A DNA stretch of 64,000 bases from NCBI RefSeq assembly GCF_014695575.1, contig NZ_JACJOO010000016.1, positions 1 through 64,000 of the forward strand, written 5' to 3'. Below the pieces are notes generated by a model. It ran no database searches, was not told where the DNA came from, and saw only the letters and a program-made list of their open reading frames with translations. Both the position numbers and the translations under genes were made by a program. Numbering within the stretch: position 1 is the first letter of the stretch; every line of letters starts with the position of its first letter. The stretch comes from Leptolyngbya sp. FACHB-8. Lineage in GTDB: Bacteria > Cyanobacteriota > Cyanobacteriia > Elainellales > Elainellaceae. Below, one piece after another: positions 1 to 51,155 of this stretch.

Positions 1-114
1 GGTGCTAATGGCGGTTTGGCCCCACTCTCATCCATCCCGAACTGAGGTGTGAAACAGACCAGCGGCGAAGATACTTTGGGGGTTGCCCCACGGGAAAATA
101 GCTCAGTGCCAGGG
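1..114 (+). rRNA. rrf: 5S ribosomal RNA (5' end cut by window)
   Basis: This is the RNA of the large ribosomal subunit central protuberance. The conserved internal segment CATCCCGAACT and the following GTGAAAC are present. The 3' end CCAGG (109-113) would pair with the CCTGG expected at the 5' end, of which only the last two or so bases are inside the window, so about four bases are missing. The rest of the rRNA operon (16S, 23S) should lie immediately upstream of the window. Confidence 0.93.
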
Positions 115-21687: not shown

Positions 21688-21740
21688 GTTTAATGACCAA
21701 AATAGAGGGGGCTTAGCCCCCTCTATTTTGGTCATTAAAC
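21688..21740. repeat. 25-bp perfect palindrome with TTA loop
   Basis: Arms 21688-21712 and 21716-21740 match perfectly. The right arm includes the TAA stop (21735-21737) of the minus-strand small gene, so the hairpin begins inside that gene's last codons. It probably serves as a terminator for both converging genes. Confidence 0.85.
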
Positions 21741-25217: not shown

Positions 25218-25279
25218 CTAACCCTAGCTCTGCTTAAGGATGCTTTCGAGTACCGCACAATGCCCGACCCTCAAAAACA

Positions 25280-25316
25280 CCCATTTTCGTATGTGCGAAG
25301 CGCACGCAAAAATGGG
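25280..25316. repeat. Dispersed hairpin repeat (GTGCG-AAG-CGCAC apex)
   Basis: An 8-bp base stem (25280-25287 with 25309-25316) and a 5-bp GC apex. The left flank CTTTCGAGTACCGCAC (near 25241) resembles the right flanks of the hairpins at 34000 and 47594, suggesting one family in different arrangements. Confidence 0.6.
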
Positions 25317-25338
25317 CACTTGAGTTTATCTAATAGGC

Positions 25339-25374
25339 AACAAAGAGAAGACGAATCCTCTCCCTCTCTTTGTT
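25339..25374. terminator. Hairpin before convergent lipase gene
   Basis: A perfect 10-bp inverted repeat (25339-25348 with 25365-25374) lies 15 bases beyond the 3' end of the minus-strand hydrolase gene and is suited to terminating it. Confidence 0.6.
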
Positions 25375-29183: not shown

Positions 29184-29786
29184 ATCTGTAGTTCCTTAGA
29201 ATGGATTTTAAAGAGTTGGAGATGCAGATTTTGTTGTGATTGTTGATACAAAAGAATATACGGCAGAGTCAGCCTCAGTTAAGCAAACATTAAGAAAATG
29301 TACTTAAAGATTAATTAATTTTTCTTTTTATCAGAGCTTTTTGTCTGTCTTAATGGGTTTCTGTGAGTTTTCTTTAATTCCTGGCCACGTTTCAAGTGCA
29401 TCAGCGGTATTGAGAAGAACATGGAAACCTCTAAAACCACTGATACGCTTAAAGCGCTCCAGTTATTCCTTTGCTTTGGAGATTTCCAGTAATAAAATTA
29501 CCTCCGTGATGTGAGTGCTTTGCCCGCGAAGCGGGCAAAGCACTCACATCACGGGTAAATTCTATGCAGAGATTTCCTTTCATGATGATGCGGAACCTAT
29601 TGCTGCTAGAAGAAAACCTGAAAATACTGGTTTTTAGCGGTTTTAGGGGAGACTACTAATTGTAAAAATGACTGTATCCCAGTTGTCTACCTAAACAGGA
29701 GTATTAAGAAATGTATCTAAAAGAAGATATAAGTACACCAAGTCGCAGGCTTTGATGGAGGTAATCCCTACACTTCAGATCGCTGC
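29184..29786. other. Intergenic region with repeat element
   Basis: About 600 bases without a gene. The AT-rich part near 29290-29345 probably holds the promoter of the minus-strand pair. The second half contains the hairpin element at 29478-29577. No other feature is evident before the 65-residue gene. Confidence 0.45.
29478..29577. repeat. Dispersed element, family 4 (with hairpin)
   Basis: A 24-bp perfect stem (29504-29527 with 29531-29554) closed by a GAA triloop. The left flank GGAGATTTCC...AAAATTACC and right flank GGGTAAATTCT...GCAGA also occur at 42854-42914, where the hairpin is replaced by about 8 unrelated bases. Confidence 0.8.
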
Positions 29787-33865: not shown

Positions 33866-33999
33866 GCTGGGATTGGTTCCACCTTTCAACAATGATTCAG
33901 AATTTCTCCCATTGTTGTCCGCAACTTAATTTAAGTCGGATATATTGTTGAGTCATATTATCAGAAATATTTTAGCCCCAGTTCAGGATAAGCTGGAGT

Positions 34000-34038
34000 G
34001 CCTATTTTGGCGTGCGCGAAGCGCACGCCAAAATAGGC
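34000..34038. repeat. Dispersed hairpin repeat with GAA triloop
   Basis: A perfect 18-bp stem (34000-34017 with 34021-34038) has a GAA loop and is followed by TTTTTC. The left flank CAGTTCAGGATAAGCTGGAGTG and right flank TTTTTCAAGTACCG recur at 47574-47646 with different stem bases. It lies between the convergent methyltransferase and exoD genes and would terminate both. Confidence 0.85.
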
Positions 34039-34076
34039 TTTTTCAAGTACCGTGTTAGCAAGGGAAAAGCTCACTG

Positions 34077-34697
34077 TTATAAAGACTGGAGGCGATCGCC
34101 CAAGTGTAAGAAAAATGCTAGAGCCGCACCACTAATACTGGAAAAGAAAAGAGTCGTTACGATGGTCATACCAAATCCTACCAGCATCAGAAACCCATCA
34201 GCTTCCAGAACGCCTATCGACAGCACGAGGATGGTATAGGCGGGAAACATGTTTGTAAAGGGAATGGGGAGTGGTAATGACATTAGCAACCCATTCCAGA
34301 ACAAACACAATCCTCCTAATCGATACAACATCCAATTCTCTCGAACAAATAGCAGGCGAGAGCGAGACAGACGCTCAATTGGGTAAAGAATGCGCGTCAG
34401 GTTTTTAAGAAGTTCTCGCGATAGCTTGGGGGTGAGTTCTAATCGGGCGATTGGAGAAGGTAGGCGAGGCTGATGCCAGCCTATGGCGATTTGGAATCCC
34501 ATAAGTGTAGGACCAGCTGCAAATAGCGCGGATATGCCGGGTAAAGGAATGGGTACCGGAAGGAGCAAGGGTAGCGTAAGGATGATACTAATAACGCCAA
34601 ATCCCTTCTCGCCAGTGCGTTCTAGCAGGGTTGAGATACTGAGTGAGCGATCGGTATATTCTTCAAGTAGAAGCTTAATAGTTTCAGACAGTTTCAT
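34077..34697 (-). CDS. exoD: ExoD-family membrane protein
   Basis: 206 residues. ExoD family proteins are small inner-membrane proteins linked to exopolysaccharide synthesis in rhizobia; their biochemical activity is not established. The sequence starts with a soluble helix (LSETIKLLLEEYTDRSLSISTLLERTGEKGFG) and then has several hydrophobic segments: VISIILTLPLLLPVPIPLPGISALFA (the Pro-rich motif of the family), LGGLCLFWNGLLMSLPLPIPFTNMFPAYTILVL, and MLVGFGMTIVTTLFFSSISGAALAFFL. ATG at 34697. Confidence 0.88.
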   Translation of the reverse strand: MKLSETIKLLLEEYTDRSLSISTLLERTGEKGFGVISIILTLPLLLPVPIPLPGISALFAAGPTLMGFQIAIGWHQPRLPSPIARLELTPKLSRELLKNLTRILYPIERLSRSRLLFVRENWMLYRLGGLCLFWNGLLMSLPLPIPFTNMFPAYTILVLSIGVLEADGFLMLVGFGMTIVTTLFFSSISGAALAFFLHLGDRLQSL

Positions 34698-42620: not shown

Positions 42621-42800
42621 AGCCTGCTTTAAAGGGTTCAGGACTTACGCAAGTTCGCTATCTGTAGTACATTTATGTTGTGGGTGGGGTGCAAAGCACC
42701 CCACCCACAACATAAATGCGTAAGTCTTAGGGTTGTGTTTTTGTGTGCTTTGCACACGAAAACACAACCCTTTCAGCAAGCTTTAAAACACGTCTTAAGC
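42618..42800. repeat. Family 2 hairpin repeat (copy D), split by a miniature element
   Basis: The left end TAGAGCCTGCTTTAAAGGGTT (the first three bases are the hetP stop) stops at 42638 and resumes at 42730 with GGGTTGTG. A 20-bp stem follows (42729-42748 with 42752-42771, TTT loop), then CTTTCAGCAAGCTTTAAAAC. Removing 42639-42734 restores an arrangement nearly identical to copy C at 30006. Confidence 0.82.
42639..42729. mobile_element. 91-bp MITE-like element with 5-bp target duplication
   Basis: Terminal inverted repeats CAGGACTTACGCA and TGCGTAAGTCTTA match at 11 of 13 positions. Inside is a perfect 23-bp stem (42670-42692 with 42696-42718) with an AAA triloop. It is bordered by GGGTT on both sides (42634-42638 and 42730-42734), as expected for a transposase-generated duplication. 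It has no coding capacity. Confidence 0.78.
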
Positions 42801-42926: not shown

Positions 42927-45900
42927 TTAACCTTCTAAGGGGATCTGTAGGATAAATTGAGTACGCTGATTACCACTTTCTACCCAGATCGTCCCTCCCA
43001 ATTGTTCTATCAATTTCTTGACCAGAGCCAACCCCAAGCCTGTTCCACCGTGTTTCCAGGGGTCATTATTGGGGATGCGGTAGAACTTATCGAAGATGCG
43101 ATCGCGTTCCTCTGGTGGAATTTCTACCCCTGAATTGGTGACCTTGATATGGATCTGGGAGACACCATGAGCATCTGCAAAGGGAGAGACTGAAATGGAG
43201 ATTGTTTCCTGGGGAGGGGTGTACTTGAAGGCATTGTGCAGTAACTCGGTGAGTGCCCGCTCCAGATAAGAAAAGTCAGTTGTCAAGGTTGGTAAATCTT
43301 CAGCTATCTGAATTTCTAGCTGTTGATTTTGGTGGAAGGTGCGCTGCGTGAAGGGCTCAGCAACATGGGGAATCCAGTACTGGAGGGGAATAGACGTGAG
43401 GCTGAGTGGTTCGGAACCCGAGTCAATGCGGGCCAAGTCGAGCAGGTCATTGACCAGACTCATTTCACGCTTGCATTCTGTTTGCAAAATTTGGAAATTG
43501 CTACTGATGGCATTCGTTTCAGGCTCAAAAAGCCCTAGAGGACGTAAGCAAATATCCAGCATTTGGAGCGCCATTTGCATGTTGGATATGGGCGTTCGCA
43601 ACTCGTGGGATACGGTACTGAGGAAATCATCTTTGAGTTGATTCAGCCGGGCCAGTTCCTCCACCTGAGTTTGGGCTGCCCGGTACAGGCGGGATTGCCG
43701 AAGGGCGATCGCACACTGATTGGCTACCTGCTTCACCAGTCGCACCTCGGCAACATCAAAGAGAGCATCGGCGGGTTTGAATAGCCAGAGATCACCCAAT
43801 ACTCCCTGATCATCCACAATGGGACAAGCCAACACCGACAGAAGCGCTTCATGGGATCGTAGGGGATTAGGAACCACGTCACAGAATTGACAGACTTGTC
43901 CTTGCAGTAGATGCTTGTAGACTTCCGCGTGGGGAGCAGTGGCGATCGCAAACGTTGCACCCTGAGCCGAAGATAAGGGCCCATTGAATTCGTAGGCGAT
44001 AGTGGAGGTCGTCTGGTCGGCGTTGTAAATGCCCGTATCGCAGCAGATAGTTCCCAACCCTCGGCTCAGTTCCAGCACCGCCGATTGCAAAATTTCCTGT
44101 TCATTCAGGCTGTCGCGCACGCTATCCGTGATGCGTTTGAGAAGGGCTTCAAAATCGAGAGACTGTTGGAGTTGTGCCGTGCGTTCTTGTACTTGATATT
44201 CCAGATGGGCGTTGAGATGCTGTACCTGGCCATATAGCTCGGATTGTTGGATGGCGATCGCCACCTGGGTCGCCAGTTGTAGCAGCAGGTCGCACTCTAA
44301 GGAAGTCCAGTGGCGGGGCCCCTGGCACTGATGGACAACCAATAAACCCCAGAGGGAATCTCCCTGCCAGATGGGTACGACGAGTTTGGCTTTTACCTGA
44401 AGCCGCTCTAGCATCTCAATATGGCAGGGATTCAGGCCAGCGGTATAGATGTCATCCCGGGCTTGAATGGCTTGTTTTGTATAGGCCTGCTCGTGGTGTT
44501 CAATAAAGTAGGTATCTGTAATTTCCAAGTTGAGAATTGAATTCCAGCCTGGGGCTACGGATTCAGTAACCACAATGCCACCCCAATCGGGGTTGAACCG
44601 ATAGACGATCACGCGATCGGTCTGAAGGAACTGGCGTACATCGGTAACGGTAGCACTGAGGATGTCGCCCAAATCCAGGGATTGGCGAATGTGTTGGGCG
44701 ATCGCATAGATCATCCGCTCACGCTCAGCCTGATGGCGTAAATGCGTTTCTGCTTGCTTTTGCGCTGTTATGTCGACAAACGAGGCCACAACAGCGTAGA
44801 TCTGAGATGCTCCTGGCTGTAGTAGGGGCTGTGAATTGATGGAGATCCAGGTGAGGTCTCCACTAGGTTTATAAATTCCCATCACAACATTGCACTGAGG
44901 GTGACCGGTGCGAAGCGTTACCATCGCTGGGTGGGTTTCTCCGGGGAAAGGAGACCCATCCTCGTGAATGGCTTGCCAGCGTGGATCAATGGACGTGCGT
45001 CCCATTATCTGATCCTGCGTCAGCCCTAATATCTCTTCGGCACTGTGGTTACAGGCCGTGATTTGACCGTCGGCTTGCTGCAACACAATCCCTTCGGCCA
45101 TAGTACTAACAACCGAGCGATAACGCTCTTCACTCTCCTGCAACGCGTGGACTAGCGCATTTTTAGATGCGAACTCAGAGGCTAGTTGAATGGATGCGGT
45201 GAGAAAACCCGCCATCAGTTGCAGGGTTTGGGCATCCTGCTCTGAAAAGGCAGCGGGCACTTGGGAAAACACCTTCAGCACGCCAAGACTGTTACCCGCG
45301 GAGAGAAGCGGCACCACAACCATGGAGCGCGCGCCAACGCGACGGCAGGCATCTCGATCCACTCGGGGATCCGTTTCAGTATCGTCACTTTGCAAAATTT
45401 CTTTTGCTGCAATGCAACGCCCCGACAGGCTTGTGGTTCGCTGAATCCGCAGGCCAATGAGATCCGCAGCGGCACCGCTTCCGGCGCGATAAACCAGTTC
45501 GTCTCCTTCCAGTAATTCAACGACCGCTCCGGTGGCTTGCGTCAGAGCCTGGGTTTATTCGGCGATCACAGCCATGACCGCATCCAGGTCGGAATAGTTG
45601 AGGGCAATGTCTTGTTGAACCGTGATAATGGTAGCTAAGCGCTGGGATTTTTCCCGCAATGCGACTTCAGCCTGTTTGAGTTCTGTAATATCAACGGCGT
45701 TACCAATAATGCCTTGAGCGCGATTGTGAGCATCCACCCAGGGTCGAATCACGGTCTGATACCACCGCACTTCCCCGGTAGCCGTCGTAATTTGCTGAAT
45801 CTCTTGCTGAGGTTGGCGGCTATCCATAACCTCCCGGTTGGTTGTCAAAAACTGCTCCAGCTGAGCCGCCTCAAAGTTGGGGTTGAACTCCATCTCGTGT

Positions 45901-47408
45901 TTGCCAACCATGGCGTCAACTGTTGTGCCATGAACTTCGGCGCTGGCTTGATTCACAACCTGAAACCGACCATCTGGGCTTTTGGCAAAGATTGAACTGG
46001 GGACGGTATCCATAATTTGACGGAGAAAGATGCGCTGGGCTTCAAGTTCTGCTTCAGCCCGAAGGCGATCGTCCAGAGCTTCATGCTGAGCAGTGGTATC
46101 CTGCTCATTCACCAGGATCATGGCTTTCCCAGTAACAGGGTCGTTGACACAACGGGCGTCCACACCGTGCCAACGCAAGCCCTGCCGAGTCAGCACCTGG
46201 GCTTCGGCTCTGAATACCTCCCCGCTTTCCAAAGCCGTCAGGGCTTGCGACCGAAGCTCTAGATCGACAAAGTGGCGCAAGAATGCATGGTCATTGGATG
46301 GCTGAGGATGTTGGGGATTACCGTAGCAATCTAGCGCCGCTGGATTTTGCAGGAGTACTTCCCCCTCCAGGGTGTAGAGGGAGATTATGACACTTGTGTG
46401 CCGTAGGGCTTCAATGGAACGCAGGGTATCTTGATCAATCTGATGGGCCAGCTCAAGGGTGCCTTCCACCAGCATGGCCAGTCGCCCATGTTCAATGGAA
46501 ATGCCTGAGCAGCGGCAGTGGACTGTAACAGGTTGCCCTTTGGGGTAAAACGTCCATTGTTCGACCAGGGTTTTACCTTGCTGAAATTGTTGTAAGTAGC
46601 TCTGCAAGCGAATCTGCACCGATTCAGATATGTCGCTAAAATCCCGGCGCAGTAATTCCTCTCGATGGGGCGCATTCCAGAGCGAAAGCGATGCTTGATT
46701 GGCCCAGTAGATGTGGAGCCGCTCAATATCAAACACCCATACGGGAGTTTGTAGTTGATCAAAAGCATGGAAGAATGCTGCTTCGCTTGAGCCGTACTCT
46801 ACAGGAGGGACTATAGGCGGCGTTGCCGCGTCCTCCGCCAGGGACAACTCCGGAAAACTTGTGTGCTCTGCTCGCAGGGTTTGAAGTTTGCCACTGACCT
46901 GCATCGCGATGTGGCGCAAAACCTGCGTTTCTGATGCTTGCCATTGCCGGGGGCCTTCACATTGATGGACGATCAGTAATCCCCATAGCTCAGGGAGCGG
47001 CTGCTCAGATGGCAGCAAAATGGGCACTACAAGATTGGCTCGCACCTGGAGCCGTTCCATCATTTCCCGGTAGCACAAGGGGAGATCCGCAGTTTCGAGA
47101 TCCTCAATACTACTCACATGTCCCTGCTGGTACTTCAGATGCCATTTCGTCTCGAAGCAAGGATCGTAGATGAGCTGGCCCTGGATGGCTGGCCAGTGAT
47201 AATCGATCGCTTCGGCTATCACAACTCCATCGCCACCCGGTAGGAAGCGGTAAATCAGGGCGCGATCGCACCCTAAAATCGCCCGAACGCCTGTGACTGC
47301 TGTAGTCAGTGTGGTATCTAGCTCAGTGGCTTGCTGAATCTGCTGTGCCGTGAGCGTCAGTTGTTCTAAAACCTGTTCTAGGTAGGCTTCAGGGTGACGA
47401 AACAACAT
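42927..47408 (-). pseudogene. Giant PAS/GAF sensor histidine kinase split by in-frame TAA
   Basis: One frame of about 1493 codons interrupted once, by TAA at 45555-45557. Upstream part (617 residues, ATG 47408): GAF at ~20-190 with Cys84 (DPCF) and Cys112 (LCY), 28 residues apart, then three PAS domains. The TAA falls inside the next GAF: DLDAVMAVIAE, stop, [18 protein letters not shown]. Downstream part: rest of that GAF, a PAS, a GAF with DTYF and NPCHIEML, a fourth GAF, HisKA (SHELRTP) and HATPase_c ([17 protein letters not shown]). As read, the upstream product lacks a kinase; the downstream frame could begin only at a weak TTG (45395). CAA-to-TAA or AAA-to-TAA would explain the stop. Confidence 0.85.
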
Positions 47409-47567
47409 AGTAGTAGCCGGTTAGATGACAGGGATATTTGTAGTATTCACTACTGTATGGGGATTTATTAAAGGGACTGAAGAATTTCTGTGAAGTATTA
47501 CACTGCGTAAACAATACTGGCACTTCAGAAATAACTAAGAATCTCCTTTTTGGGTCACGAGCTAATA

Positions 47568-47691
47568 AACCTCAGTTCGGGTTAAGCTGAAGTGCTCATT
47601 TTGGCGTGCGCTTTGCGCACGCCAAAATGAGCGTTTTCGAGTGCCGCGCAACGCGCGGCACTCGAAAACGTCCTTAACCCGAACTCAGGTT
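47568..47691. repeat. Three-way-junction element between divergent kinases
   Basis: A 19-bp outer stem with one mismatch (47568-47586 with 47673-47691) encloses two perfect hairpins that abut at 47632/47633: 18 bp with a TTT loop (47594-47611 with 47615-47632) and 17 bp with an AAC loop (47633-47649 with 47653-47669). It is upstream of both adjacent genes, so it is not a terminator for either. Confidence 0.85.
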
Positions 47692-47791
47692 AATAACGGG
47701 TAATCTTTGGAGCAACAATATTACAGCTAACTCTGTTATCTATGAGACCCATGATATCGTCTTGAGACTGGCTGTTGGTAGTGTTCCAGAC

Positions 47792-47852
47792 ATGTGGATA
47801 GGGCGTGGTGAAAGGGGCACGAGATACCTCTTTCACCACGCTCTATTCACAT
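47792..47852. repeat. Long imperfect hairpin in divergent spacer
   Basis: Arms of about 25 bases (47792-47815 with 47827-47852) pair with a few mismatches around CGTGGTGAAAG/CTTTCACCACG. It lies about 150 bases upstream of the membrane kinase start and may be in its leader. Confidence 0.6.
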
Positions 47853-48000
47853 ATTTGAAATGTGGCCTGACTGTTGTCAAAAGATAGAAACTTTAGAAAG
47901 ACTCAATAATTCGTCCCTTGGAGAGGTGCGGAATGTGGGGTGCTCCCTCTAACCTGTTGGGCGTCCAGCCCATTTGTGTGGCGATACGAGCGTTAGGCGC

Positions 48001-51108: not shown

Positions 51109-51155
51109 GTTGTTTTTGTGAGAACCGCGCTCCGCGCGGCTCTCACAAAAACAAC
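51109..51155 (+). terminator. 22-bp hairpin terminator after membrane kinase
   Basis: Arms 51109-51130 and 51134-51155 pair at 21 of 22 positions around a TCC loop, 39 bases after the stop codon. GTTGTTTTTGTG at the base and a GC-rich apex resemble the dispersed hairpins. Confidence 0.8.

Follow-up and report, generated by a model that had tools for sequence, protein, structure and literature searches.

Between two kinase genes

What is a stretch of DNA that can fold into a three-way junction doing between two divergent kinase genes, and is it there for their sake? We addressed this question in a 64,000-nucleotide stretch of the Leptolyngbya sp. FACHB-8 genome (the window), where the structure at 47568-47691 lies between an ATG at 47408 on the minus strand and a start at 47974 or 48001 on the plus strand, so that the position given in the original prediction is borne out. 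The three-way fold is likewise confirmed, at -90.3 kcal/mol compared with -38.1 +/- 3.4 kcal/mol in shuffled sequences (z = -15.6; none of 200 shuffles was as stable), and DNA parameters give -62 to -64 kcal/mol with the same fold on both strands. Hairpin B (47594-47632, 18-bp arms, loop TTT) and hairpin A (47633-47669, 17-bp arms, loop AAC) abut at 47632/47633 without a spare base, enclosed by an outer stem that pairs 47568-47586 with 47673-47691. The junction had been called perfect, which is true of the two hairpins but not of the outer stem, where 18 of 19 pairs form around one C:C mismatch, nor of the junction itself, where 7 + 3 bases are unpaired.

The biological unit proves to be 122 bp long. 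The outermost bases of the fold are part of 6-bp duplications, TAATAA at 47563-47568 and, identically, at 47691-47696, which delimit an element at 47569-47690 with a left terminal inverted repeat, ACCTCAGTTCGGGTTAAG (47569-47586, plus strand), that IS982 elements also carry, and a right terminal inverted repeat at 47673-47690 on the minus strand. This element is noncoding, shorter than 500 bp, and free of a transposase or long frame; its hairpin cores are G+C rich, and the AT-richness that is typical of MITEs, without defining them, is absent. We conclude with high confidence that 47569-47690 is a MITE with IS982-type ends, presumably mobilized by an IS982 transposase, and the evidence for this reading is set out below.

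Dispersed copies and target duplications

The Leptolyngbya sp. FACHB-8 assembly (G000; 6.9 Mb, 95 contigs) was searched with the unit, and the best 40 of 371 candidates comprised the query and 39 other places, at 95-98% identity over approximately the whole unit. When at most 2 mismatches are allowed, 383 places in this genome match the end sequence AACCTGAGTTCGGGTTAA, compared with 1 for the reversed control; at two ends per element, this corresponds to about 190 elements. A second copy with conserved folding, for which a search had been proposed, was thus found many times over. The window itself holds two more, a decayed copy at 33974-34095 (end approximate), with hairpin B still perfect and two doubly changed pairs, and a more decayed one at 25220-25343 (end approximate). 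An exact pattern of end plus hairpin had no match in the contigs of named genomes, and plasmid and phage collections gave no match to the element. Copies of 83 bp at L073:13149, L085:1008, and L052:17821 have most of both hairpins gone, as expected from inter-hairpin deletion.

Copies were sampled in about 0.85 Mb (848 kb) of the genome, mostly 20-kb stretches picked around known copies, and the element was bounded as ACC...GGT (122 bp) for counting duplications. Perfect direct repeats of at least 5 bp flank 45 of 60 sampled copies, compared with 2.4% upon random re-pairing of flanks, and they measure 6 bp in 27 copies, 7 bp in 14, 8 bp in 3, and 10 bp in 1. Two relatives of the same family but other genera, G016 and G013, have such duplications at 16 of 18 and 6 of 17 copies, respectively. 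Pooled over the three genomes, 54 of 62 duplications of 6 or 7 bp have T first and A last, with the consensus TANNTA or TANNNTA. A reading as 4- to 5-bp duplications beside AACC was dropped in favor of 6 to 7 bp beside ACC, a boundary that explains the constant T and A.

Gapless empty paralogous sites were found for two insertions that had gone into other repeats, L070:9853 (TACAAA; compared with L073) and L057:19416 (TATTTTC; compared with L051). An orthologous empty site was sought in a same-genus genome, where the window locus gave no alignment; the nearest relative compared is too divergent, with a 20-kb stretch aligning to a same-genus genome piecewise at approximately 66-77%.

Being dispersed, palindromic, and hairpin rich, the element might also be taken for a REP or IS200/IS605-like repeat, moved as single-stranded DNA by an HUH enzyme. 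We give this reading next to no credence, as such elements have neither the true terminal inverted repeats nor the 6- to 7-bp duplications found here, and the ends are those of a DDE transposase family. The PATEs of Haloquadratum (PMC3119063) offer a comparison: they carry palindromes, as does the element here, but are related to IS605 and have neither terminal inverted repeats nor duplications.

Ends shared with IS982 elements

Searching the order with the end sequence led to elements of 966 to 981 bp that carry the same ends and a transposase gene. The 292-amino-acid transposase of one genome, G035, scores 247.5 bits against NF033520 transpos_IS982 (cut-off, 130) and also matches PF13612. 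Among 80 IS982 loci from named genomes, 64 have the same ends (at most 3 mismatches each); these elements are about 970 bp long, and 28 of the 64 are flanked by duplications of 5 to 8 bp in the T...A pattern seen in the MITE, whereas a clear duplication is absent from the other 36. The IS982 family, which includes the cyanobacterial ISNsp1, is described as having terminal AC, direct repeats of 2 to 10 bp, and conserved inverted repeat positions AC(N)6T(N)5TT (PMC7335449). The MITE end, ACCTSAGTTCGGG, likewise starts with AC, and its mostly 6- to 7-bp duplications fall within that range; of the conserved positions, AC and the first two T's fit, while the last T does not. Beyond the ends the likeness stops: unlike members of the family, the MITE carries no transposase, the clear match to an IS982 element is restricted to the terminal 19 to 20 bp, and the two hairpins are unrelated to the IS interior.

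The host genome yielded no match to the G035 protein, and its best score for the IS982 family was a subthreshold 23.7 bits. An intact IS982 transposase was not found in G013 either; the IS982 copies of G016 mostly contain stops, and a same-genus genome, G001, has one intact copy with TAGCTA on its flanks. The helper is accordingly deduced from relatives, and the MITE family appears to be stranded, barring a helper in an assembly gap. This weakens the case for present activity of the MITE but not for its origin. Most plausibly, an IS982 transposase acting in trans would have recognized the ends and inserted the MITE into T-N4/5-A targets (best, TANNTA), with duplication of 6 to 7 bp; about 190 such insertions would have accumulated in this genome, from whose assembly the helper has presumably since been lost.

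MITEs with IS982-type ends are already known. MITECca01 of Cardinium (PMC9769881) is one, with 169 copies, mostly intergenic; it differs from the element described here in being about 240 bp long and derived from ISCca4, with the intact parent still present, and the word "hairpin" is absent from the paper, which thus describes no hairpin core. The MITEs of Haloquadratum likewise share only their ends with the helper (PMC3119063). Cyanobacterial MITEs such as Nezha, cited in a review (PMC10969869), are likewise short noncoding mobile repeats.

The double hairpin in other genera

In G016 and G013, the length and layout of the element are kept while the hairpin sequences are different. An alignment of 22 sequences, drawn from the three genera, has 97.4% of its cells paired; doubly changed cells number 127, compared with 45.6 in shuffles. 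Helix 2 shows double changes at 11 of its 18 pairs and helix 3 at 9 of its 19 (20 of 37 together), but the outer stem at only 1 of 17; in two copies, an extra base is present in each of the two arms simultaneously (alignment columns 30/54 and 69/95). When 145 genomes of the class were searched with a covariance model built from this alignment, 19 contained matches. At L219 to L223, in genus g44 of another family (f24), folding revealed a pair of adjacent triloop hairpins, different in sequence, between IS982 ends, and at L228, L229, and L231, in other cyanobacterial families, 103-bp elements lack the double hairpin, although they have both target duplications and IS982 ends. Some weak model matches (L224 and L235) were excluded as single long hairpins. 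In the literature searched, no two-hairpin core common to unrelated MITE families is described, which is weak evidence, as most subscription journals lay outside the search.

Regulation of the kinase genes

A regulatory RNA and a protein-binding cruciform were among the identities suggested for the structure in the divergent promoter region, but we found no support for a dedicated regulatory role there. Only 4 of 56 copies lie inside frames of at least 100 amino acids, though such frames hold 72% of the sequence, so copies avoid genes. Among 50 intergenic copies, 28 lie in tandem, 16 in convergent, and 6 in divergent gaps; divergent gaps make up 26% of the sampled intergenic bases, and about 13 copies would be expected in them. 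In an Rfam search of the window, the sole match above the gathering score was 5S rRNA, and the element matched no family. The 5S rRNA gene is at window positions 1-114 (plus strand), truncated by the window start.

A structured regulatory RNA or attenuator of both kinase genes, conserved for its three-way junction, would explain the very stable fold, the position upstream of both genes, and the pair-preserving changes across genera. It is nevertheless extremely improbable given that the same fold occurs in about 190 unrelated places, flanked by target duplications, that divergent gaps hold fewer copies than their share of bases, that Rfam has no match for it, and that no promoter-like site was found in 47400-48000. 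A bidirectional transcription terminator or insulator, kept for limiting read-through, also appears quite unlikely, if less so. Perfect GC-rich hairpins would suit such a role, one terminator-like call falls on the minus strand, and convergent gaps hold 16 of the 50 copies with 21% of the intergenic bases. In that call, however, the stem is followed by CTCATTTTGG; no T run directly follows the stems on either strand, there is no plus-strand call within the element, and the kinase gap contains no convincing terminator. Most copies, moreover, occupy tandem gaps, and the MITEs at L228, L229, and L231 have the same ends without the double hairpin.

We therefore return to the MITE as the preferred reading. 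The position of the element in the divergent promoter region is incidental, and a dedicated role for the kinases is not supported; it would be one chance insertion, which may affect kinase expression by accident, any such effect being a by-product. A composite of two inserted repeats had also been considered, and this is correct insofar as an inserted mobile repeat is present, although it is one element and not two. The left kinase frame (window 42927-47408, minus strand) is interrupted near 45555 by an in-frame stop that appears to fall within a GAF domain, and this may reflect a pseudogene, recoding, or an assembly error.

The same layout in another MITE family

One empty site led us to a second, unrelated MITE family in the same genome, with the ends CAGCAATTCTCA[TG]T[TA]TG (308 matches compared with 1 for the control). 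Its element is 132 bp long, 16 of the 28 pairs sampled show 9-bp duplications, and the element too contains two adjacent triloop hairpins whose loops occur in both orientations. Copies lie at L051:16081-16234, at L061:10564-10695, and in about 25 further places in the sampled stretches. A putative helper, L213:98-1517 in G023, is 1,420 bp long, shares these ends, and has a 9-bp duplication; its 435-amino-acid protein shows weak DDE_Tnp_1/IS4-like similarity, below all curated cut-offs, and is not IS982. This element possibly represents an undescribed IS group.

Of 60 adjacent-hairpin pairs in the sampled stretches, 53 are enclosed by an outer stem, compared with 1 of 300 in a random-position control. 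Among the 53, 39 belong to the IS982 type, 13 to the second type, and 1 to neither; choosing the sample around IS982-type copies biases the ratio of the two families. Adjacent-hairpin pairs in this sample are thus almost wholly mobile elements, which advises against taking such folds for riboregulators.

Co-varying arms and inverted loops

How do the hairpin arms stay perfect? We compared 109 copies or fragments from the host genome with their consensus, taking as null distribution 1,000 permutations in which right arms were dealt among copies. Compensated double changes number 55 in hairpin A (permutation mean, 8.4; maximum, 18) and 78 in hairpin B (mean, 17.0; maximum, 30), that is, 133 in both together compared with about 25 expected, while the outer stem has 6 compared with 3.4 expected. 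The excess in the hairpins, with the outer stem near expectation, indicates that hairpin arms change together and the ends evolve independently. These counts are not independent events, as related copies inherit changes and those shared by a subfamily are counted repeatedly; the distinct types of double change are 35 in the hairpins and 5 in the outer stem. The loops occur in both orientations, GTT in 43 and AAC in 27 copies for hairpin A and TTT in 36 and AAA in 29 for hairpin B, and all four combinations occur, even on otherwise equal copies.

Polymerase template switching between inverted repeats is known to cause both arm homogenization and spacer inversion (PMC8604942). In the MITE, a DNA polymerase would switch template inside a hairpin, copying one arm onto the other and inverting the loop, and template switching is probably the cause of the perfect arms. 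The yeast case shows the same arm homogenization and short-spacer inversion, but at single coding sites, whereas here both signatures run across a whole repeat family. Alternatively, the hairpins of this same IS982-type MITE could owe their perfect arms to selection acting on the element in its folded form, for transposition or host tolerance, with no need of template switching. Selection for folding could likewise yield arm co-variation, and it would agree with the finding that the layout returns, with different hairpins, across several genera and again in the second MITE family, whose ends differ, as well as with the outer stem in 53 of 60 adjacent-hairpin pairs. We consider it unlikely, though worth keeping in mind, since the near-balanced loop flips would be left unexplained, decayed copies with damaged ends keep doubly changed perfect arms (e.g., window 33974), and MITEs with IS982 ends exist that have no double hairpin.

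We tentatively raise a further idea, about which we remain doubtful: that paired ends with two adjacent triloop hairpins are a convergent design of MITEs with unrelated transposases, in which extruded hairpins would give a flexible junction and raise transposition while template switching renews the hairpins. Since 120 to 130 bp of stiff DNA resists joining of its ends, such a junction would present both ends side by side. Should the layout indeed aid transposition, the numerical excess of very small MITEs over their helper elements could be explained. The many copies of the MITE also amount to a naturally replicated experiment for counting arm conversion and loop inversion in palindromes, the outer stem of the same element serving as internal control.

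Other hairpins were seen along the way. The sampled 848 kb contain 373 of them, and single near-perfect hairpins with 1- to 3-base loops lie at window positions 21688-21740, 29504-29554, 42670-42718, 42729-42771, and 51109-51155. A 45-bp palindromic stretch at L060:4097-4141, which is matched dozens of times on the two strands of G001, belongs to another dispersed hairpin family.
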